Below, piece after piece: positions 13,107-26,685 of a stretch of DNA of 35,337 bases. The notes below the pieces were generated by a model. It saw nothing but the letters and a program-made list of their open reading frames with translations, had not been told where the DNA came from and did not search any database. The stretch comes from Oscillospiraceae bacterium. GTDB taxonomy: Bacteria > Bacillota > Clostridia > Oscillospirales > Oscillospiraceae. The translations under genes were made by a program, and so were the position numbers. Each line of letters opens with the position of its first letter. Position 1 is the stretch's first letter. Where the stretch lies: NCBI GenBank assembly GCA_031281195.1, contig JAITFS010000179.1, forward strand, positions 1 through 35,337, read 5' to 3'.

Positions 13107-13128
13107 AATGTTTCTCCTATTAAAGTGC

Positions 13129-13157
13129 TTGATATTACTGGTTATATATGGTATAAT
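13129..13157 (+). promoter_or_regulatory. Promoter of deacetylase gene
   Basis: TTGATA (13129-13134), 17-nt spacer, TATAAT (13152-13157) with TGG extended -10. Confidence 0.8.
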
Positions 13158-13166
13158 ATCCAAGTT

Positions 13167-14423
13167 ATGAGAACTATTATAAAGAAATATAGTAAAATTG
13201 TATATATATTATCAGCAATTATTGTATGTGTTTTTCTAACTATTACATTCACAGCTTGTAGTAGTGCGGCTGACGAGCCTGACCCGTCACCCTCTGTCGA
13301 GCCGTCAACACCTACTCCTACTCCATCAACACCTACACCTACCCCGGTTCCACTTGAGCTTGTGCCTTGGAGTGGGCCGGTTGAGCATCTTTTTACACAT
13401 GAGGTTATTGCATGGCCTGAGCTTGCGTTTAACGGCAGAACACGTCAAGGTGGTTTTGATGCTGAGTTTATCACAGCTAATGAGTTTCGTGCAATACTTC
13501 AAAGCTTGTATGATAATAACTATATTTTAATTGACTTAAATGATGTTTGGTCAGAGTTTACTAATGAGTCTGATCAGCTAAGAATGATGCGTAATACTTT
13601 GATGATTCCCGAAGGAAAAAAACCTTTGGTTATTTCTTTTGATGATATGAACTTTTATGCGATTGATATTCCTTATGGTTTAATGTCAAAGTATATTATT
13701 GGGAGTGACGGGCAAATTTGGGCGGAAGGTTTCGACCCGACCGGTAACTATGTTGTTTCTCAGGATTTAGCAGCGGTGACAATTCTTGATAAGTTTGTCA
13801 GAGAAAACCCCGGGTTTTCGCATAATGGTGCAAAGGGTTGCATTGCTCTTACAGGCTTCGAAGGGATTTTAGGCTACCGGACACAAAATGACCCTAGTGA
13901 CACATCTCAAGCTTTTCGTTTAAATCGAATGGCTGAAACCGCTCGTGTAAAACCTGTTGTTGACAGATTAAAAGCTACAGGTTGGTATTTTGCTTCACAT
14001 AGCTACGGGCATATCGGTATAGCCAGTGCATCACTTGCACGAGTTCAAGCAGATGGTGAACGTTGGCTTGATGAGGTTGGTTCAATTGTTGGCGATACTA
14101 AGATTTTTATATATCCGTTTGGACAAAGGCTTGATGGTGCTGACCAAAATGTTCCGGGACCGGCATTAAGGTTTTATGCAGAAGAATTGGGTTTCCGTTT
14201 ATTTGCTTCTGTTGGACGTGAGCCATATACACAGATAAAAGATTCTATTCCGGCTGTAATTATGGATAGAATGTTAGTTGGTGGCAGAACACTTAGAAAC
14301 TCACGCGAAAGATACTTAAGATTCTTTGATGCAGCAGATGTTTTTGAAACCGCTGTACGTCCCGATGAGTATGGAACTGATTGGGGTAACAATGATGATA
14401 ATTACGGTGGCGATGACGATTAG
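13167..14423 (+). CDS. Polysaccharide deacetylase family lipoprotein
   Basis: Start MRTIIKKYSKIVYIL...FTACSSAADE lipobox; Pro/Thr linker; KPLVISFDDMNFY and WYFASHSYGHI match NodB-type motifs. Confidence 0.82.
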   Translation: MRTIIKKYSKIVYILSAIIVCVFLTITFTACSSAADEPDPSPSVEPSTPTPTPSTPTPTPVPLELVPWSGPVEHLFTHEVIAWPELAFNGRTRQGGFDAEFITANEFRAILQSLYDNNYILIDLNDVWSEFTNESDQLRMMRNTLMIPEGKKPLVISFDDMNFYAIDIPYGLMSKYIIGSDGQIWAEGFDPTGNYVVSQDLAAVTILDKFVRENPGFSHNGAKGCIALTGFEGILGYRTQNDPSDTSQAFRLNRMAETARVKPVVDRLKATGWYFASHSYGHIGIASASLARVQADGERWLDEVGSIVGDTKIFIYPFGQRLDGADQNVPGPALRFYAEELGFRLFASVGREPYTQIKDSIPAVIMDRMLVGGRTLRNSRERYLRFFDAADVFETAVRPDEYGTDWGNNDDNYGGDDD

Positions 14424-15896: not shown

Positions 15897-17135
15897 TTAT
15901 TTATCAAACAATTTGTTTAATAGTTTTGTGCCATCTTTTATATACTCACCGTTACTAGCATCATGTTCATTAAAATGTAAGCCTGTGTTTAACTCTTTAC
16001 TACTGTCATATATTGTATAAGGTACTGCTCCGTTTGCATGGCTTCTTGTAGAAATTAATGTTCTATGGTCAGTCATCAGCAGGATTTTAAAATCTGTATC
16101 AGCGCTACTTAGTTTATCATATATTGGTGCAACAATGCGAGAGTCTATCCACTCAATTGCCTGTATTTTTCCTTTTAGATCTCCATTGTGTGTACATTCG
16201 TCCGGTGCTTCGACATGAACTGCTACAAAGTCGTGTGTTTTCAAGGCTTCGATGGCTGCTTCTACTTTTCCTTCATAGTTAGTATTTAGCTCTCCTGTTG
16301 CTCCTTTTACTATGATTTTTTCAAGACCGATAAGCACACCGATACCTTGACATAGTGGCACAGCGGAGATAACTGCTCCGGTTTTGTTATATTTGTCAGA
16401 AAACCTTGGTAATTCTTTTGCTTCACCCTCTGCCCAAAACCATATTCCGTTTGCAGGTAGTTTTCCTTTAGCTTTTCGTTCTATGTTTATTGGGTGTTTG
16501 TCGAGTATCTCATGCGCTTTTAGCATAAGTGTTCTTAGCATTTTAGCATTTTCTGTATTTTCTGTTGGTAACAGGTTTATATAAGGCTTGAACAAATTGT
16601 CGTGAGGTGGTGTAAGCTTTGTAAGGACTTGTTTTGTTTCTGTAGATGCTTCTCCTGTTTTTCCTGCACCTTGTATAGCTATATGTCTAAATGAATTCCC
16701 CGGATATATTTTTATTGATGCTTTTTCTGCGATTTCCTTTATTTCTGCATTATTAAATAGTTCTGTAATTAGGGAATCTGATATATCGCCTTCAATTGAG
16801 TCTGCAGAGTGTGAGATTATCCTGCCATCTTCGAATGTTACCATATTACAACGGTAAGCAATGTCGCCTTTACTCATTTTTATTCCCATTGCTGCGGCTT
16901 CCAGTGCTGCTCGTCCGCCATAACTGTCTTTTGGGTCATAGCCAAAAATAGATAATATTGCAGTGTCGCTCCCTGCTGTTAAATCATTTGGCACTGTCAG
17001 CACATTTCCAAAAACACCTAAACTTGCGAGCTTGTCCATAGTTGGTGTTTTTGCGTATTGTAAAGGTGTTTTGTTTTTAAGCTCCGAAACGAGGTCATCC
17101 GCCATTCCATCACCTATAATAAGTACATATTTCAT
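15897..17135 (-). CDS. apgM: Cofactor-independent phosphoglycerate mutase, archaeal type
   Basis: MKYVLIIGDGMADD, GVFGNVLTVPNDLTAGSDTAILSIFGYDP, GRAALEAAAMGI, HVEAPDECTHNGD, MTDHRTLISTRSHANGAVPYTIY. Confidence 0.93.
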   Translation of the reverse strand: MKYVLIIGDGMADDLVSELKNKTPLQYAKTPTMDKLASLGVFGNVLTVPNDLTAGSDTAILSIFGYDPKDSYGGRAALEAAAMGIKMSKGDIAYRCNMVTFEDGRIISHSADSIEGDISDSLITELFNNAEIKEIAEKASIKIYPGNSFRHIAIQGAGKTGEASTETKQVLTKLTPPHDNLFKPYINLLPTENTENAKMLRTLMLKAHEILDKHPINIERKAKGKLPANGIWFWAEGEAKELPRFSDKYNKTGAVISAVPLCQGIGVLIGLEKIIVKGATGELNTNYEGKVEAAIEALKTHDFVAVHVEAPDECTHNGDLKGKIQAIEWIDSRIVAPIYDKLSSADTDFKILLMTDHRTLISTRSHANGAVPYTIYDSSKELNTGLHFNEHDASNGEYIKDGTKLLNKLFDK

Positions 17136-18670
17136 GATTGTAGCACCTCTTTTAGCATGGTGCGATATTCGTTGGCGATGGTGATTTCATTTATAACAAT
17201 GCATTGTTGAATTCCTGCTGTTACTTCTGTTTCTAATTTTGTTTTGTTTCCTGTTCTTTCAAATTGCATTATTGCAATGTTTATCATTGCACTTGCGATT
17301 CTAACCGGGTCATTGCTTTTTTTGATTTGTTCAAGCCATAGTTCTTTACTTATTTCTGGTTTATCCATAAACTCATTGCATATTGCCAGAGAATTTGTTG
17401 CTCCGTCCCATACTTTATTGTTTTTTGATTTTTCTGCCAATTCTCTTGCAGCCAGTAGCTTTTCGTATGCTATTAAAAAGCTTCCAATTTGTAAAAACAT
17501 ATATCCTTCTTCATATAACAAGCTTGCTCTAAAGCTTTCATCATCTTTTTTGCAAATTTTTTCGGCTTGTTTTATTTTTTCGCTAAAAATTGTGATTTCA
17601 TTTAATTCTGATAATAATAATAAGTATCTTAATATGTGGCTTTTATATAAATCATAGTTTTTTTCACGGTTTTCAGGAATACAGAAAAAACCTTCTGTAA
17701 GCATAATATATTCGCGCATTTTTTCGTAATTGTGAGTTTTCGAGTAACAGTCTGCTAAAAAAGAGGCTACATTCGCTCTAATATAAGGTTTATCCATTGT
17801 CATTGCCAGAGCATGTACTGTGTTGAAGTACTCGATTGCATTTTTCATTTTATCATCATACATCGAGTATTCACCAAGCTTTGTTATTATATTTAGTTCT
17901 GAAACCATGTCATCAATTCTACATGCTACATCGAGTGCTTCAATAAGCTCTTCGACTGCTTTTGCGTAATTCATTTGTTGTGCGTATTCACTAGCTGTAG
18001 TCAAATAATGTTTTACCAGTTGTTTTTCATTACCGGGTTTTTTAAGTATGAGTTTTGCTTCATCCTTTAGTGTATTTATAGGTTCAGGTAGTTTATTTTC
18101 GCTTTTTTCAATGCTTTTCTTAGCTTGTATATTTGGCTTTTCCATTCCAATTCCCAAGGTTTTTTTTGCTAAATGTTTAATAACTTGTGTAAGCTTTTCA
18201 TTTTCGTTATCGTAACAACATGTAAATACCATGTATAAATCAATATTTACATCAAATAAACGCTCAAACAATCCAATAGTAAAATCGTCTGCCTTGTCTA
18301 TGTCATCAATAATAATTATTGCCGGATTTTTATATAAACATTCATATACTGTTTTTGCAAGGTTTTGTTTAGTATATTCCTCATCCTTGTTTAGTTCTTT
18401 GTTTATATATCTTGTGATAAAATCGATTAGTTTTGGGTTAAAGTTCTCCTTGTATGTGTTAATAAATTGCTCCAGTATTTCTCTGAGTGCATCACTTTTA
18501 GGGTTTATTGAGTAATATACATCGACGTTTTGGAGCTTATCCTTTAGTTCTTTTAGTAATGCTGTTTTGCCGGAGTTACGCTCTCCGTGTATGCAAACAC
18601 AGCGTTTGTCAGAAGCTCCACTTTGTACATCGCTATAATTATCAAGTATCTGCTGTAAAATAACACTCAC
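17132..18670 (-). CDS. P-loop ATPase with C-terminal TPR-like repeats (STAND/AAA_16-like)
   Basis: Walker A GERNSGKT, Walker B AIIIIDDIDKAD, then helical TPR-like repeats; no DNA-binding or effector domain recognised. GTG start; overlaps apgM by 4 nt. Confidence 0.75.
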   Translation of the reverse strand: MSVILQQILDNYSDVQSGASDKRCVCIHGERNSGKTALLKELKDKLQNVDVYYSINPKSDALREILEQFINTYKENFNPKLIDFITRYINKELNKDEEYTKQNLAKTVYECLYKNPAIIIIDDIDKADDFTIGLFERLFDVNIDLYMVFTCCYDNENEKLTQVIKHLAKKTLGIGMEKPNIQAKKSIEKSENKLPEPINTLKDEAKLILKKPGNEKQLVKHYLTTASEYAQQMNYAKAVEELIEALDVACRIDDMVSELNIITKLGEYSMYDDKMKNAIEYFNTVHALAMTMDKPYIRANVASFLADCYSKTHNYEKMREYIMLTEGFFCIPENREKNYDLYKSHILRYLLLLSELNEITIFSEKIKQAEKICKKDDESFRASLLYEEGYMFLQIGSFLIAYEKLLAARELAEKSKNNKVWDGATNSLAICNEFMDKPEISKELWLEQIKKSNDPVRIASAMINIAIMQFERTGNKTKLETEVTAGIQQCIVINEITIANEYRTMLKEVLQS

Positions 18671-18692: not shown

Positions 18693-18783
18693 GTAGATAC
18701 AACAGTAAGTTATTTTTAATTTGTCTCAAAGCAGCAAGCTAGCGAAATGAGACAAACAAAAAATAACCCACTGTCGCATCTAC
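18693..18783 (-). repeat. Long near-palindrome (two 35-bp arms, 21-bp centre)
   Basis: Left arm GTAGATACAACAGTAAGTTATTTTTAATTTGTCTC; reverse complement of right arm GTAGATGCGACAGTGGGTTATTTTTTGTTTGTCTC; 29/35 identical. Confidence 0.85.
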
Positions 18784-18833: not shown

Positions 18834-20447
18834 ATGCTTTTTACTTCATTTAACTTTTTAATTTTTCTTGCTGTTTTAGTTGCTTTATATGCAATTACAC
18901 CGCAGAGATTTCGTTGGTTTGTTTTGCTTGTAGGGTCAATGACTTTTTATGGTTTTGCCGGACTTCATTTTCTTATTTATATAAATGCAACTATTGTAAT
19001 TACTTATTTTTGTACAATAAAAATCAGACATCTTCGATTAATTCGTGATGTTGAGATTGAAAAATTTAATGATTTAGGATTATCACAAGAGAATATTAAA
19101 GAAGCAAGGCGGAGCTTACGAGATAAAACTAAGCGTAAAGCTAAAGGGTGGACAGCTTTGTGTTTAGTTTTGATTATTGGTATTCTCGCTGCGGTGAAGT
19201 ACACTGATTTTGCTATCGAAAACTTTAATACAATCCTTCGGCTTTTTAACGATTCACAGCAGTTTAGTCTGATAGGAATTGCTGTACCACTCGGAATATC
19301 TTTTTATACTTTTCAAACTGTTGGATATGTGATTGATGTTTATCGAGAGAAAGCTGAAATTGTAAGAAACCCATTAAAATTAGCTTTGTTTACATCTTTT
19401 TTCCCACAGGTAATTCAAGGCCCGATAAGCCGTTTTGAAAATCTTTCAAAAACTCTTTATAGTGGTTCACAGATTAACAGACATGGTTTAGCACGTGGTT
19501 CACAACGTATTCTTTGGGGGTTTTTCAAAAAGCTGGTTATAGCTGACAGGCTTTGGCCTGCTCTTGCTTTTCTCGCAATACATCCGGAGGAATATCAAGG
19601 AATCTATTACCTCTTTGCTATCGCATTGTATGCTATTGTTTTATATTGTGATTTTTCCGGTGGAATTGATATTGCAATAGGTGCTGCGGAGCTTTTTGGG
19701 GTTCGTTTACCCGAAAACTTTAACCGCCCATTTTATTCACGTTCGATACAGGAGTATTGGCAACGCTGGCATATTACAATGTATAGCTGGTTTCGTGATT
19801 ATGTGTTTTATCCGATGGCGGCAAGTAAAAGAATGTTACGTTTTTCTAAGGCTTCACGACGTGTAGTTGGCAATAATCTTGCAAAAAGATTACCTGTTCA
19901 TATATCGCTTATTTTCGTATGGTTTTTAACCGGTTTGTGGCATGGTGCAACTTGGAACTTTATAATGTGGGGTATGACAAATGGTATTGTTTTAATGATT
20001 TCATTGGAGCTAACTCCTTTGTATGAGCGGTTTAACAAACATTTCCCTACACTAACGGATAAATGGTTTTATCGTTCAATTCAGATTTTCCGTACTTTTT
20101 GGCTAATGAACTTTATACGTTCGTTTGATATTTATGACGGAGTAAGAAATACATTCCGTATGATGTGGAGTGTTGTAGCAAACTTTAGTTTTAATGAATT
20201 TCTTACTTCCGGTTTAAGTGAGCTTAAATTATCAACTGAGGAATATTTTAGTGCTTTAGCCGGTTTATTAATAGTCTTTTTTATCAGCTTTTTGGGTCGT
20301 GGAAATATTGATTTTAGAGATAGATTAGGCGGGGTAAAATGGCCACTTCGTTATACTTTAACAGGTGTAGTTTTGTTTATGACACTGGTATTAGGAGCTT
20401 ATGGACATGGGTTTGACGCGCGGCAGTTTATTTACAATATATTTTAA
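18834..20447 (+). CDS. MBOAT family O-acyltransferase (DltB/AlgI-like)
   Basis: Multi-TM; IQGPISRFE, CDFSGGIDIAIGAAELFGVRLPENFNRPFYSRSIQEYWQRWHITMYSWFRDYVFYPM, FLTGLWHGATWNFIMWG. The MLFTSFNFLIFL start at 18834 is preferred; the ORF-track start at 18747 lies inside the palindrome. Confidence 0.93.
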   Translation: MLFTSFNFLIFLAVLVALYAITPQRFRWFVLLVGSMTFYGFAGLHFLIYINATIVITYFCTIKIRHLRLIRDVEIEKFNDLGLSQENIKEARRSLRDKTKRKAKGWTALCLVLIIGILAAVKYTDFAIENFNTILRLFNDSQQFSLIGIAVPLGISFYTFQTVGYVIDVYREKAEIVRNPLKLALFTSFFPQVIQGPISRFENLSKTLYSGSQINRHGLARGSQRILWGFFKKLVIADRLWPALAFLAIHPEEYQGIYYLFAIALYAIVLYCDFSGGIDIAIGAAELFGVRLPENFNRPFYSRSIQEYWQRWHITMYSWFRDYVFYPMAASKRMLRFSKASRRVVGNNLAKRLPVHISLIFVWFLTGLWHGATWNFIMWGMTNGIVLMISLELTPLYERFNKHFPTLTDKWFYRSIQIFRTFWLMNFIRSFDIYDGVRNTFRMMWSVVANFSFNEFLTSGLSELKLSTEEYFSALAGLLIVFFISFLGRGNIDFRDRLGGVKWPLRYTLTGVVLFMTLVLGAYGHGFDARQFIYNIF

Positions 20448-21510
20448 GATTATTGTTGCAGTAATCGCTTTTGTTGTAGTGTTTTTCACATTACAACGAT
20501 TGCTTGTGCCAAAGTATGCTTCTACTGCAATTGAAGGTGGTCTTATACGTGAGTATTACAATAGTCCAATGAATCATGATGTGATTTTTCTTGGAGATTG
20601 TGAGGTTTATGCTAATTTTTCACCTATCACTCTTTGGGAGGAATATGGAATAACCTCATATATTCGCGGCAGCCCTCAGCAGCTTATATGGCATTCGTAT
20701 TATTTACTTGAGGATACCTTACGTTTTGCTGTAGAAAAGCCAAAAGTGGTTGTGCTTAGTGTTATGGCTATGCAATATGATGAACCTTTATATGAACCGT
20801 ACAACCGTTTAACAATTGATGGTATGCGGTTATCACCAACTAAGCTCCGTGCAATTCGTTCATCTCGTACAGAGGGTGAAGATTATTTATCATATATACT
20901 TCCGTTTTTCAGATTTAAAGACAACTGGCGAGATTTTAGCAGTGAGGATTTTCGCTATTTCTTTCAAAACCCTCAAGTTTCTATAAGTGGTTTTATGGTG
21001 CGTAGTGATGTGTTTCCTGTGGAGTTTATTCCTGACCCAATAAGGTTGCCGAATTATGAATTTGGCGAAAAGCCTATGTATTATTTAAACAAAATCACAA
21101 CTTTAGCAAAGGAAAATGATATAGAGCTTGTTTTAGTAAAAGCACCTGTTTTGTGGCCTTATTGGTTTGAGCAGTGGGCTATGCAGATTGATACTTTTGC
21201 TTATAATAATGGTTTAAAAAATGTGGATTTCACCATTGGTTTAAATAATGAAGGCTTGGACTATGTTGGATTGGATTTTTCTAAACATACTTTTAACGCA
21301 GGTTTACATTTAAATGTTTTTGGTGCTGAGCTATTATCAAGTTATTTTGGCGGTATTTTAAAAGAATTTTATGACCTGCCTGACAGGCGAAATGACCCTG
21401 TTACCGTTGAATATTGGGCAGAGCTGTCTAAGCAGTACAACCGTCTAATAGCAACACAACTCGAAGAAATAAGAGAAACCGGTCATATTCATACTTTCTT
21501 AATAAAATGA
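20407..21510 (+). CDS. SGNH-hydrolase-like / DltD-like membrane-anchored partner of MBOAT
   Basis: N-terminal TM, DVIFLGDCEVYANFSPITLWEEYGI, late AGLHLNVFGAELLS; SD AGGAG 9 nt before ATG 20407; overlaps the MBOAT gene by 41 nt. Confidence 0.78.
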   Translation: MGLTRGSLFTIYFKIIVAVIAFVVVFFTLQRLLVPKYASTAIEGGLIREYYNSPMNHDVIFLGDCEVYANFSPITLWEEYGITSYIRGSPQQLIWHSYYLLEDTLRFAVEKPKVVVLSVMAMQYDEPLYEPYNRLTIDGMRLSPTKLRAIRSSRTEGEDYLSYILPFFRFKDNWRDFSSEDFRYFFQNPQVSISGFMVRSDVFPVEFIPDPIRLPNYEFGEKPMYYLNKITTLAKENDIELVLVKAPVLWPYWFEQWAMQIDTFAYNNGLKNVDFTIGLNNEGLDYVGLDFSKHTFNAGLHLNVFGAELLSSYFGGILKEFYDLPDRRNDPVTVEYWAELSKQYNRLIATQLEEIRETGHIHTFLIK

Positions 21511-21526
21511 TGGTATAATGGAGATA

Positions 21527-22126
21527 ATGAAAAGATTTTTAATATTATCATGCATATTGATTTTACCGGTACTCGTTGCTTGTAATGATTCTGATGATTC
21601 TACTTCTGATGTTTCACCTACACCTGTTGTTACTGATGGTACTAATGGTAACAATGATTCAAATACTGATAATCCAAACAATGGGGACATTAACAACACC
21701 GATGACCCTAATGTTGATGATACACCGCTCTTTTCGCTTGCGGTTGGTGACTTTGTTATTGAAATGAATATGAATGTTGAGTATGCACTTGCTGCTTTAG
21801 GTGAACCTTTAGGAGTTTTTGAAGCTCCCAGTTGTGCTTTTGATGGAGTCGATCGAATATTTCAATATCAAAATTTTCAACTTTTAACATATCCTGTTGG
21901 GGACGATGATTTTATACATACGATTAGTTTTCGTAATGATTTGATTCGTACAACAGAGGGTATTCGTATAGGTAACAGCCTAAATGATATGCTGGAAGCG
22001 TATGGTGACGATTATGAATATGATCTTAGTTTATATAGATTTGTTCGGGAAAGAACATTTATAGAGTTTTTAATTGAGAATGATATTGTAGTTCAGATAA
22101 TTTATGGTTATACTATTAATAATTGA
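21527..22126 (+). CDS. Small lipoprotein with Asp/Asn-rich linker, possibly BamE/SmpA-like fold
   Basis: MKRFLILSCILILPVLVAC-NDSDDS lipobox; IRTTEGIRIGNSLNDMLEAYGDDY resembles the BamE-like helix-turn pattern. Confidence 0.65.
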   Translation: MKRFLILSCILILPVLVACNDSDDSTSDVSPTPVVTDGTNGNNDSNTDNPNNGDINNTDDPNVDDTPLFSLAVGDFVIEMNMNVEYALAALGEPLGVFEAPSCAFDGVDRIFQYQNFQLLTYPVGDDDFIHTISFRNDLIRTTEGIRIGNSLNDMLEAYGDDYEYDLSLYRFVRERTFIEFLIENDIVVQIIYGYTINN

Positions 22127-22152
22127 TTGTAACACAGGAGTAACACTGATAA

Positions 22153-24135
22153 ATGAAACTTTTTAGCAAACAAGGTAAACGCAGCATATCTTCAACAAAA
22201 CCACAGAAAACAAGAATAGTTAAAGATGTACCATCCTCTGATGTAACTACTTTAAACGAGAATATTGCAGTTGCTGTTTCATTAGAGCCTGAATTAAAGT
22301 CTGTTGAACCTGTACCTGTTATAACGCAACAAGTTGAGGTTGTAGTTTCTGAAGCAGTTGAACCTGTTGTAGTTGAACAACCTGCTGTTGCTGTGCCGCA
22401 AAATATTGTTCAACCTGTAGAATCTCAGAGTAAATACATTGTAAATTATCCTGATGTAGAGTTATCTGAAGCATCAAAGCGTGCAATTGAAACTGTTATA
22501 CACAAAGAGAATATTCTTGACGACAATCTTTATATTACGCAAGAGATTGTGCTAGACAGCACTTTTGAACACCTTGCTCCACCAAAGAAATCACCATTAA
22601 AGATTATTGGAATAATCCTTTTATGTATGATAGCCCTTGGTGCTATTAGTGCCGGCGGTTGGTATTATTGGATGGTTAGCCATGCTGCTTTTGATTTTAC
22701 ATTACAACCAATAGTTATTTTAAATGGAGAATCAATATTAGCTAGCGATTTTCTGTTAGATTCTGAGGATTTATCATCAACATCAGTTAGATTTTTAGAC
22801 CCTGATTATTACCCTGTCGAAGGACGCCATGAAGTGCCGATAATACTTTCAATGGGTTTACGTTCTGTTGAAACATGGGGAATTGTATATGTACTAAAGC
22901 CTATAAGTGGTATAACAGCCGAGTTCAGAGATGATCTATCCGGCTTGGTTGCTTCTGATTTTCTTGCAAATGCAAGCATTGCCAGAGGTGTTGAGTTTGA
23001 TGTCCGTTTTATTGAAGAGCCTTTACCTCTGGCTGAATATGATGTTGGTGAGTATATTTTGCACTTGTCATTAAATGGTGCTCCTTTTAGTGTGACATTA
23101 ACCATTGAAGACACAACACCTCCAACTGCAACACCTATAAGTGTACACAATCATATAATTGGTGAACCTATCACACCTGATGCTTTTCTGGTTGGAGTGT
23201 ATGACCCTTCGGGTGTTGTTTCCATTGAATTTGTAACAGAACCTGATGTTTTTGATAGAGAAGGACGTAATCAAATCGTTGAGATTATTGTGACTGATAC
23301 ATGGGGTAATAGTGAGGTTTTTCGCTCGGATTTAACAATATTAATGAATGAAACACCTCCGGTTCTTGAAGGTCCGACTCTCATTGAGAGTAAGGTCGGA
23401 AATCCTGTAATGTTTTTAAATGGTGTAACAGCGTTTGATAGCTTTGGAAGAGAGTTAGAGCTTGTTGTTGATTTATTAGGCTTCGACCAGGATATTGTTG
23501 GTGAATACAGCATTTTTATTTCTACCATTGACTTGACCGGGAATATTTCAAATATTGAAGTAATTATACGCATTATAGAGGTTGATCCTGATGAAGTTTA
23601 TGAGCTTGTAGATGCTGCACTTGAGAATGCTTATAGGGAGTTTTTACGTGGTGGTGGAGCTATGTCGCAAGAAGCACTAGATGCAGCAGTTGCAAATATG
23701 ACTCAAGTAGAACAAGCTCGTGCGATAATCATTGAGATAAGGCGACTTATAAGATATGCTGATACTCGTGGCGGTCCTCAGTCTATATATGAAGCTGCAT
23801 ACTCAGGTTTACGTGAGCGTAGTGGAAATTGTTTTAACTATTACGCACTTGGTGAACTTATGTTGACAAGAGCAGGTATTCCCAATATGATGATTGAACG
23901 CAGACGTGATATTGGTCATGGTACAAACCACAGATGGAGCTTAATAAACCCTGATAATGCCGGTTGGCATCACTTCGATTCTGTGCCTACAAGATACCTT
24001 GATTTAAACACTATTATGCATGCGATGACACAATCGCAAACAAAATTAATTGAAAATGCTCCTGTTATTTTTGAAAACCACGGTGGTTTGTTCTACGCTT
24101 TTGACCCATCGTTATACCCGGATATAGTACCGTAA
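22153..24135 (+). CDS. Single-pass membrane protein with Ig-like repeats and C-terminal transglutaminase-like domain
   Basis: Val/Pro/Glu-rich N-terminus, TM KIIGIILLCMIALGAISAGGWYYW, Ig-like segments, then Cys RSGNCFNYYAL, His TNHRWSLI, Asp HHFDSVP. Confidence 0.83.
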   Translation: MKLFSKQGKRSISSTKPQKTRIVKDVPSSDVTTLNENIAVAVSLEPELKSVEPVPVITQQVEVVVSEAVEPVVVEQPAVAVPQNIVQPVESQSKYIVNYPDVELSEASKRAIETVIHKENILDDNLYITQEIVLDSTFEHLAPPKKSPLKIIGIILLCMIALGAISAGGWYYWMVSHAAFDFTLQPIVILNGESILASDFLLDSEDLSSTSVRFLDPDYYPVEGRHEVPIILSMGLRSVETWGIVYVLKPISGITAEFRDDLSGLVASDFLANASIARGVEFDVRFIEEPLPLAEYDVGEYILHLSLNGAPFSVTLTIEDTTPPTATPISVHNHIIGEPITPDAFLVGVYDPSGVVSIEFVTEPDVFDREGRNQIVEIIVTDTWGNSEVFRSDLTILMNETPPVLEGPTLIESKVGNPVMFLNGVTAFDSFGRELELVVDLLGFDQDIVGEYSIFISTIDLTGNISNIEVIIRIIEVDPDEVYELVDAALENAYREFLRGGGAMSQEALDAAVANMTQVEQARAIIIEIRRLIRYADTRGGPQSIYEAAYSGLRERSGNCFNYYALGELMLTRAGIPNMMIERRRDIGHGTNHRWSLINPDNAGWHHFDSVPTRYLDLNTIMHAMTQSQTKLIENAPVIFENHGGLFYAFDPSLYPDIVP

Positions 24136-24152
24136 TACAGTGAGGTGTATTT

Positions 24153-24875
24153 ATGAAGGATGTGCTTAATAATGACCCTGCGTTTCTCACATTAATACGT
24201 CAAGAGGATGGTTATTCCAGTTCCTTGCTTGGTGTAATTGGTGGTATGGGAACAAGAGCTACTACATATTTCCACGATAAGCTTCATAGCCTGCAAGAGA
24301 TTTCAAAGGAACAGGATTTCACGGATGTCCTTATCTATAGTGTGCCAACTACACCTGACCGTACTGCTTATATAACCGGAAAAAGTAAAAACAGTCCTTT
24401 ACCAAAACTGCTTGATGCTGCAAAAACTCTGGAAATAGCAGGTGCTACCAAGCTTGCTATGCTGTGTATTACCTCTCATTACTTTTATGATAAAATTGTT
24501 GAAACTGTAAATATACCATTCTTAAACATGCCCGATGAAGTAGCACGTTATGCTGCTGAGTGCAGATATACAAAGGTTGGTTTACTTGCTACATCCGGTA
24601 CTATTGATGGTAAGTTTTTCCATACAGCATTTAAAAACTTCGGCATAAATGTCCTTACTTTATCACCGGAGTTACAAGATGATTTAATGAAGCTCATATA
24701 TGATGTAAAGCTTGGTATTGATATTATGCCTTGTGCTTTAATCCCAATGGTTGCAGAGCTTGATGATAGAGGTGTAGATGCTGTAATTCTAGGTTGTACA
24801 GAGCTTTGCGTTATAGGTGACATAAACACAAATTGTATTAACTCTTTGGATGTTTTAGCAGGAGCTTGTATTTAA
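24153..24875 (+). CDS. Aspartate/glutamate racemase family protein
   Basis: LGVIGGMGTRATTYFHDKL; first Cys motif MLCITSHYF; VGLLATSGTIDGKFF; second Cys motif VILGCTELC. Confidence 0.9.
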   Translation: MKDVLNNDPAFLTLIRQEDGYSSSLLGVIGGMGTRATTYFHDKLHSLQEISKEQDFTDVLIYSVPTTPDRTAYITGKSKNSPLPKLLDAAKTLEIAGATKLAMLCITSHYFYDKIVETVNIPFLNMPDEVARYAAECRYTKVGLLATSGTIDGKFFHTAFKNFGINVLTLSPELQDDLMKLIYDVKLGIDIMPCALIPMVAELDDRGVDAVILGCTELCVIGDINTNCINSLDVLAGACI

Positions 24876-24879
24876 TATT

Positions 24880-26451
24880 ATGATTAATGTTTTAGATTAT
24901 TTGGAAAATACAATAAAAACTATGAGCAACCCCGATAAACCTGCATTTATCGGGGAAAAATCATCTCTATCTTTTAATGAGCTATATATGAGAAGTCTCT
25001 CTTGTGGTAGTTATATTGCTTCAAAAGAGTTACAAAAACAACCGATTGTTGTATTCATGCAAAAAACACCTGCTATAATTGCTGCTTTCCTTGGTGTTGT
25101 TTATAGTGGTAACTATTACGTACCAATAGATTCAGAGATTACAACACTTCGTATTCGAATGATTTTGGAAGAGGTAAAATCTCCGCTTATTATATGTGAT
25201 GAGGTAACATCGAAGCTCCTTGATAAATGGAGTTCTGAGCGTGATTTGGATTGGGATTATGACTATAGTACCGTGTTGTTTAGCGATGCCGGCAGTTTTC
25301 TGATTGATTATAACAAGCTTACAGCTATTCGTAAAAGCACCATTGATGTTGACCCGTTGTATGTGGTATTTACTTCCGGTTCAACCGGTACTCCAAAAGG
25401 TGTAATAGCAACGCACCGCTCCGTCATTGACTATATAGAGAATCTGTCCGAGGTTTTGGCATTAGATTCTGATACTGTTTTTGGAAATCAATCCCCACTT
25501 TATCTTGATGCTTGTTTGAAGGAGGTTTTCCCCACATTAAAGTTTGGTGCTACTACTTATCTTATACCACCTTCACTTTTTATGTTTCCTGTAAAACTAA
25601 TAGAATATATAAATGAGCATAAAATCAACACAATTTGCTGGGTAGCTTCTGCTCTAAGTATGGTTGCAGGTCTTGGTGCTTTTTCCGTTGCAACTCCAAA
25701 ATCACTTAAAACCATCGCATTTGGCAGTGAGATTTTCCCGGTAAGACATTTTAATTTATGGAGAGATGTTTTACCAGATACTCGTTTTATACACCTTTAT
25801 GGGCCTACAGAGGCAACCGGTATGTCGTGTTTTTATGAAGTTTCAAATTCTTATGATTATAGTGGTTCAATTCCGATTGGTTCTGCATTTCCAAACACTG
25901 AGATAATTTTGCTTGATGACAATAATAATTTACCTCCGGATGGAAAGCCCGGTGAAATCTGTATTCGTGGCGCAGGGCTTAGTCTTGGTTATTTTGGTGA
26001 TAATGAGAAAACGAACTCTGCTTTTGTGCAAAATCCGCTCTCGATTTTCCCTGATATTATTTATAGAACCGGTGATATGGGTTACTATGGTTCAATTGAT
26101 TTAGAGCAGGGTGATTCCAATGATGTTCAGAGGGTTCTTTTCTATAAGGGTCGTAGAGATCATCAAATTAAGCACATGGGTTATAGGATTGAGCTTGCTG
26201 AGATAGAGCTTATGGCTGCTAGTTTTGACGGGGTGGGGCTTGCATGTGCGGTTTTTGATAATGAAAATAGTAGGATAATTCTTTATTATATGAGTGATAG
26301 TGTTGATAAATCTGATGTTAAGGCTTTTCTTAAGGCTAATCTTCCTCGTTATATGCTACCTCAAACAATTATTCATTGCGATAATATGCCTAAAACCGCA
26401 GGTGGCAAAATCGACAGAGTAAAGCTACTGGAGTTAGGAAGCAGAAAGTAA
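24880..26451 (+). CDS. Stand-alone amino-acid adenylation domain (DltA-like ligase)
   Basis: A3 YVVFTSGSTGTPKGVIATH, A4 LYLDACLKEVFPTL, A5 IHLYGPTEATG, YRTGDMG, A8 GRRDHQIKHMGYRIELAEIE, A10 TAGGKIDR. Confidence 0.9.
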   Translation: MINVLDYLENTIKTMSNPDKPAFIGEKSSLSFNELYMRSLSCGSYIASKELQKQPIVVFMQKTPAIIAAFLGVVYSGNYYVPIDSEITTLRIRMILEEVKSPLIICDEVTSKLLDKWSSERDLDWDYDYSTVLFSDAGSFLIDYNKLTAIRKSTIDVDPLYVVFTSGSTGTPKGVIATHRSVIDYIENLSEVLALDSDTVFGNQSPLYLDACLKEVFPTLKFGATTYLIPPSLFMFPVKLIEYINEHKINTICWVASALSMVAGLGAFSVATPKSLKTIAFGSEIFPVRHFNLWRDVLPDTRFIHLYGPTEATGMSCFYEVSNSYDYSGSIPIGSAFPNTEIILLDDNNNLPPDGKPGEICIRGAGLSLGYFGDNEKTNSAFVQNPLSIFPDIIYRTGDMGYYGSIDLEQGDSNDVQRVLFYKGRRDHQIKHMGYRIELAEIELMAASFDGVGLACAVFDNENSRIILYYMSDSVDKSDVKAFLKANLPRYMLPQTIIHCDNMPKTAGGKIDRVKLLELGSRK

Positions 26452-26457
26452 AGAGCT

Positions 26458-26685
26458 ATGGAAAAACTATTAGAGATTTTACAGGAAATGCATGAGGATA
26501 TAGATTTTTCTACTCATGTTTCGCTTATTGATGATAAAGTCATCGATTCTTTTGATATTATCACTCTTATTGCAGAGATTGATGATAGAATTGGTGTAAC
26601 AATTCCTCCTGAAGAGCTTATTCCTAAAAACTTCAACTCATTCTCCGCAATGGTGAATCTTATAAATAAACTTGAGAATGAGTAA
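26458..26685 (+). CDS. Acyl/peptidyl carrier protein (DltC-like)
   Basis: 75 aa with VIDSFDIITLIAEIDDRIGVTIPPEEL; DSF is the likely phosphopantetheine site. Confidence 0.85.
   Translation: MEKLLEILQEMHEDIDFSTHVSLIDDKVIDSFDIITLIAEIDDRIGVTIPPEELIPKNFNSFSAMVNLINKLENE

Follow-up and report, generated by a model that had tools for sequence, protein, structure and literature searches.

Does a locus that joins an MBOAT acyltransferase and an SGNH-fold protein to an adenylation domain (A-domain), a carrier protein and an amino-acid racemase represent a dlt operon with additional genes, or an envelope acylation system of another kind? The locus occupies positions 18834-26685 of the window, the whole 35,337-nt stretch of DNA that was analysed and on which all positions are numbered. 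As the sequence-only reading had stated, it contains seven consecutive genes on the + strand, all of which were found as contiguous open reading frames whose neighbours overlap or are spaced by 4-26 nt. In order, they encode an MBOAT acyltransferase of 537 aa (18834..20447; PF03062, E 1.4e-15), a membrane-anchored SGNH-fold transferase (20401..21510), a lipoprotein (LP; 21518..22126, lipobox LVAC), a membrane transglutaminase-like protein with extracellular Ig-like repeats (TGL; 22153..24135, C-terminal PF01841, E 4.9e-5), an enzyme of the Asp/Glu-racemase family (24153..24875; PF01177, 3.3e-31), a stand-alone amino-acid A-domain (24880..26451; PF00501, E 2.2e-64) and a carrier protein of 75 aa (26458..26685; PF00550, E 6.2e-5). 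The MBOAT start was taken as 18834 on homologue support; the longest open reading frame opens at 18747. Pfam and NCBIfam models back the MBOAT, transglutaminase-like, racemase, A-domain and carrier assignments, and the SGNH protein and lipoprotein of the window matched no family model of either collection. The Ig-like repeats noted earlier in TGL scored above the Pfam cut-off (PF16403) in the TGLs of relatives but below it in the window copy. Promoter and terminator scans of the locus gave no signal above shuffled sequence. Adjoining the locus is an AAA/TPR protein (17132-18670, - strand) with a weak NCBIfam anti-phage match (E 4e-4), which lies beside the locus only in the closest genome, G008. 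The window also encodes a lipoprotein-like protein (13125-14423, + strand) that matches polysaccharide deacetylase (PF01522) weakly, at a score under the cut-off.

The gene set recurs in the genus and in other Clostridia families and is therefore not a chance assembly. It is present in seven other genomes of the genus, some copies having an extra TGL, inserted genes or an uncalled carrier gene. Searching genome contigs with the SGNH alignment gathered 80 related loci that span Oscillospiraceae, Lachnospiraceae, Defluviitaleaceae, Eubacteriaceae and unclassified Clostridia and Bacilli. Synteny, on which the sequence-only reading had staked its proposal, thus holds in relatives across Clostridia. 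The annotated Clostridia loci share a constant TGL–MBOAT–SGNH–LP core, and it is the donor modules that vary. This reverses part of the original description: TGL and the lipoprotein, seen there as extras on a Dlt locus, belong to the constant core and accompany several donor types, and the A-domain, carrier and racemase form a variable donor module.

Donor modules were tallied over the 72 loci, including that of the window, whose MBOAT was usable. An A-domain was adjacent in 28 loci, nearly all with an adjoining carrier, and 18 of these 28 had the racemase too. The 44 loci lacking an adjacent A-domain comprise 40 without a donor module, which presumably use acyl-CoA, two FkbH/ACP loci, and L087 and L089, in whose genomes an A-domain sharing the pocket motif lies at another site. 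At the FkbH/ACP loci (L103, 270-2296; L108, 6371-8397), FkbH (TIGR01686, E 3e-77 and 2e-83) plus ACP replaces the A-domain beside the same MBOAT–SGNH–LP core, which suggests that a glyceryl-type group is transferred. A maximum-likelihood tree of the 72 MBOATs divided them, with a support of 100/100, into the 40 carrier-less copies and a clade of 32; the latter unites the 28 copies with an adjacent A-domain, the two FkbH/ACP copies and those of L087 and L089. The donor label needs only about two changes on this tree, indicating strong clustering but few independent events. Incomplete draft contigs as the sole reason why the carrier-less clade lacks A-domain genes were considered and rejected: only 4 of 27 genomes have a close A-domain, and in each of the four it sits inside a second full locus (the search leaving aside L087, L089, the FkbH locus L108 and L103 hits of other types). 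Some genomes (L147-L150 with L096, L102, L107 and L117) carry the entire system in carrier-less as well as carrier-fed form, which suggests two different acylations per cell.

The window MBOAT has both features of an MBOAT–SGNH pair, the catalytic His and the FXYXXF acyl-shuttle motif. Its nearest solved structure is DltB (6bug, E 2e-26), and its WHGATW aligns with the DltB WHG region that includes the catalytic His; His370 is invariant in 73 MBOAT copies. The C-terminus, FIYNIF, fits FXYXXF, and homologues end in an FIYxxF-type motif whose last residue is Ile or Tyr in two of them. The Tyr of FXYXXF, a motif that belongs to DltX in the Dlt system and to the C-terminus of the MBOAT in PatA, carries the acyl group, and a carrier protein is absent from MBOAT–SGNH pathways except Dlt (PMC12148441). 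The locus of the window has the fused motif and a carrier together. The fused FIYNIF motif is predicted to stand in for DltX. PatA/PatB peptidoglycan O-acetylation and other fused-motif MBOAT–SGNH pairs share with the locus the C-terminal FXYXXF, the catalytic His and a separate SGNH protein. The locus differs from them in its putative aminoacyl-carrier donor in place of acetyl-CoA, in the Cys instead of Ser of its SGNH protein, and in its TGL and LP partners.

Assignment of the second gene to the SGNH fold, which the family models did not reveal, is backed by structure prediction. An AlphaFold model derived from 56 homologues reached a pLDDT of 90.5, and Foldseek matched it to GDSL/SGNH enzymes, Enterococcus faecium DltD (6pfx) and PatB at a probability of 1.00; a PDB sequence-profile search with the SGNH alignment returned nothing useful, so that the matches come from fold comparison. 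Cys67 occupies the nucleophile position in all 56 aligned members (GDCEVY, once GDCEAY), a constancy that is in part by construction because the fetch pattern included GDCEVYA; GSPQQL[VI]W served as an additional, independent fetch pattern. Distant SGNH partners from a profile search carry Ser at this position (GSSHMY, GSSNTY, GDSESY, GNSDMY). The catalytic Ser of the SGNH-type partner is replaced by Cys here, and the proteins constitute a Cys subfamily whose members may still function as SGNH partners do. The general-base His (His303) is kept in 55 of the 56 members. In the window's clade, Asn (Asn299) replaces the Asp that lies four residues ahead of this His, which results in a Cys-His-Asn set and makes activity less than certain. 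Cys67 is probably the acyl-enzyme nucleophile, and a thioester relay through it is plausible. If true, such a Cys nucleophile would be mechanistically new for an SGNH transferase.

Residues of the TGL triad (Cys560, His593 and Asp609) are 92-97% conserved in 77 copies. In LP, the alignment identified Cys106, additional to the lipidated Cys, and Asp112 as invariant. The LP model, with a core pLDDT of 97-99, shows a duplicated BLIP/DUF4309-like beta domain; its Foldseek matches to YfeY, YjgB and a BLIP-like protein are weak, having probabilities of 0.93-1.00 but E > 0.01. LP Cys106 (window 21833-21835) lies in the motif SCAFxG and is possibly a thiol partner of SGNH Cys67. Given that TGL and LP occur with every donor type, an acceptor-side role is the most likely one for both. 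Matches to wall teichoic acid enzymes (PF04464) are unevenly spread over the genus and for the most part weak, and teichoic acid as the acceptor is neither backed nor contradicted.

We then consider the substrate. The A-domain pocket code, DAKCAGLGMK, with positions mapped by conserved motifs and not by structure, is identical in 23 of 27 family A-domains; Lys at GrsA position 239 is found in all 27 as well as in four further class loci. In Pls_A, Glu217, which our own alignment equates with position 239, forms a salt bridge with the side chain of the substrate Lys (PMC11253843), and Glu239 is recurrent in Arg-activating domains (PMC12283262). With these precedents for charged residues at position 239, Lys239 suggests an acidic side chain, and by this analogy the substrate is probably an acidic amino acid. 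DAKCAGLGMK matches none of the Asp codes that were found (the published DLTKVGHVGK has its Lys at 278), and the acid may be Asp, Glu or another. The phosphopantetheine site of the carrier, Ser31 (IDSFDI), is invariant in 28 copies together with Asp33.

The racemase scored 168.6 bits against TIGR00035 (cut-off 93.1) and 171.8 against the CuyB cysteate racemase model, just under the cut-off of 190. Its best solved structure is the Pyrococcus horikoshii aspartate racemase (1jfl, E 4e-36). Copies outside the closest species are 33-51% identical to that of the window. Alignment with 1jfl identified Arg70, Cys105, Lys186 and Cys215, all conserved in 39 of 39 copies. In 1jfl, we take Arg48 and Lys164 to bind the side-chain carboxylate and the two Cys to be catalytic. 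The locus enzyme is thus like 1jfl and TIGR00035 in its family, its catalytic Cys pair (Cys105/Cys215) and its carboxylate-binding Arg and Lys (Arg70/Lys186), and unlike them in scoring close to the cysteate racemase cut-off and in having a predicted substrate only. It appears to retain the aspartate-racemase active site, and Asp racemisation is predicted.

Co-occurrence was examined in 388 genomes sampled evenly across the class, using match thresholds (SGNH, E < 1e-130; A-domain, E < 1e-200; racemase, E < 1e-50) placed at gaps in the E-values after inspection. Strong SGNH matches were present in 49 genomes and A-domain matches in 39. The SGNH protein occurs in 38 of the 39 A-domain genomes, the 39th having a fragment only, and the racemase in 35 of the 39 compared with 55 of the 349 others (Fisher p 1.6e-41 for A-domain–SGNH and 5.9e-21 for A-domain–racemase, with shared ancestry ignored). 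The racemase was not detected in the four other A-domain class genomes, in L079 (a partial genome) or in the L087 genome. The place of its gene varies: between TGL and the A-domain, upstream of TGL (L055, L114), downstream of LP (L206) or at a separate site in the genome. Nine of ten A-domain loci without the racemase have one elsewhere in the genome; the L066 racemase lies beside TGL on another contig, an apparent assembly break. Of the 33 genomes reached through loci that lack an adjacent A-domain, four gave strong racemase matches and a fifth a weak one, and these four are exactly the genomes that hold a second complete TGL–racemase–A-domain–carrier–MBOAT–SGNH–LP locus. We consider it likely that the substrate is in the D form; D-Asp specifically is the leading candidate, at about even chances, with D-Glu next.

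The gene anatomy, active-site conservation, synteny, co-segregation of donor and MBOAT, and co-occurrence of racemase and A-domain were observed directly. Reading the catalytic steps, the substrate and its chirality, the acceptor and the Cys chemistry from the sequences, we propose the following mechanism. The racemase would convert the L form to an acidic D-amino acid, most likely D-Asp, which the A-domain would adenylate and load as a thioester on the carrier. From the carrier, the MBOAT would move the aminoacyl group onto the Tyr of FIYNIF, the extracellular motif at its own C-terminus; with the shuttle Tyr within the MBOAT itself, DltX would be unneeded. The SGNH protein would accept the group from this Tyr, forming a thioester on Cys67 and not an ester on Ser. 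The aminoacyl group would finally be passed to a surface acceptor as an ester or amide, with TGL and LP as acceptor-side parts. Carrier-fed MBOAT–SGNH aminoacylation is very likely, and the whole reading, in which a surface acceptor is so modified, probably with D-Asp, is the one that we favour with reasonable confidence. More tentative is the wider proposal of a D-aspartate decoration of a surface polymer or protein, widespread in clostridia, by a thiol MBOAT–SGNH relay (Tyr ester to Cys thioester), with TGL, SGNH protein and LP as a single acceptor machinery that would serve interchangeable donors, namely acyl-CoA, aminoacyl-carrier and FkbH-made glyceryl-carrier. Of the original proposal, aminoacylation by D-amino-acid supply, A-domain, carrier, MBOAT and SGNH protein stands, conserved in Clostridia and distinct from canonical dlt; the framing as Dlt plus extras does not. 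The DltX-type shuttle motif of the MBOAT, the SGNH Cys and the pocket that predicts an acidic substrate in place of D-Ala had escaped it.

Teichoic acid D-alanylation by a diverged dlt operon, with the remaining genes as chance neighbours, would account for the four functional parts shared with DltABCD (stand-alone A-domain, carrier, MBOAT and SGNH protein), and it would likewise employ a carrier-thioester donor and a D-amino acid, the latter predicted here. DltB is moreover the nearest solved MBOAT structure, and the A-domain matches the DltA model with an E of 4e-70. However, no locus protein reaches a dlt equivalog cut-off: the A-domain scored 236.7 bits against TIGR01734 (cut-off 559.85), the MBOAT 158.7 bits against TIGR04091 (cut-off 375) and the carrier 30.5 and 20.4 bits against the DltC equivalogs (cut-offs 68 and 52.35). 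DltD (PF04914) had no match in the window SGNH protein or in 19 genus genomes, whereas Bacillus subtilis and Lactococcus lactis controls matched, and the DltA cut-off was passed by no protein in these 19 genomes, ten of them near complete, or in the phylum sample. The pocket, with Lys239, also has Gly at the position that we take to correspond to DltA Cys269. This Cys is near the alpha carbon and selects the enantiomer (PMC4176424); as no canonical DltA sequence was found for pocket alignment, the comparison with DltA rests on that report and on motif positions. The locus further departs from Dlt (DltXABCD) in the shuttle motif fused to the MBOAT where Dlt has a separate DltX, in its SGNH Cys nucleophile, and in TGL, LP and its own racemase, which are conserved partners over several families. 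A plain dlt operon, which the sequence-only reading had left as the fallback, is therefore at odds with the synteny, the pocket and the 19 genus genomes without canonical DltA or DltD. We conclude that the locus is no dlt operon with added genes, and we regard a diverged dlt operon as improbable.

The donor module might instead load an acidic amino acid in its L form, or cysteate or another related acid, with the racemase serving another purpose. The racemase score near the CuyB model and the racemase missing from 4 of 39 A-domain class genomes fit this possibility, which we nevertheless hold to be unlikely since the racemase tracks the A-domain across genomes from differing gene positions and would be superfluous for L-Asp or L-Glu. 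NRPS loading modules likewise consist of an A-domain and a carrier, and the MBOAT core occurs without either in many related loci; the two could thus form a minimal NRPS for a small soluble or peptide product beside an MBOAT that separately uses acyl-CoA. The locus has no condensation or release enzyme, MBOAT phylogeny tracks donor type, the carrier of most A-domain loci beyond the clade of the window lies directly 5' of the MBOAT, and FkbH/ACP is a parallel carrier donor at the same place, all of which render a minimal NRPS very improbable.

The preferred reading, carrier-fed MBOAT–SGNH aminoacylation, suggests a second carrier-using MBOAT–SGNH kind beside Dlt, with a different substrate and its own racemase, in which donor modules are exchangeable on a constant acceptor-side core. 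The system is present in about a tenth of the sampled class genomes. No description of such a system was found in the searched open-access literature on D-aspartate, MBOAT, A-domain, TGL, SGNH, FkbH and envelope topics, and this real and conserved variant of carrier-fed MBOAT–SGNH envelope acylation is apparently undescribed. If true, D-Asp decoration would add a carboxylate, compared with D-Ala, which adds only positive charge, and the locus would be a candidate D-Asp source and sink in gut Clostridia.

Two related kinds of locus were also observed. One combines an A-domain, a GNAT-family protein, a carrier, an MBOAT with an FIYxxF-type end and a polysaccharide deacetylase domain fused to an N-terminus that appears SGNH-like by eye. 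It was found at L030 (2033-6149), L031-L033, L037 and L038, of the same genus and family, and also at L202; its pocket codes, for example DLKIIGLVDK, resemble published Glu codes. The other consists of an A-domain (DVKILSLCNK), a fold-III PLP decarboxylase-family protein (PF02784/PF00278), a carrier, an MBOAT and an SGNH protein whose Ser motif is GDSESY or similar, and was found at L198 (6866-12402), L199 (6975-12469) and L201 (6077-11567).
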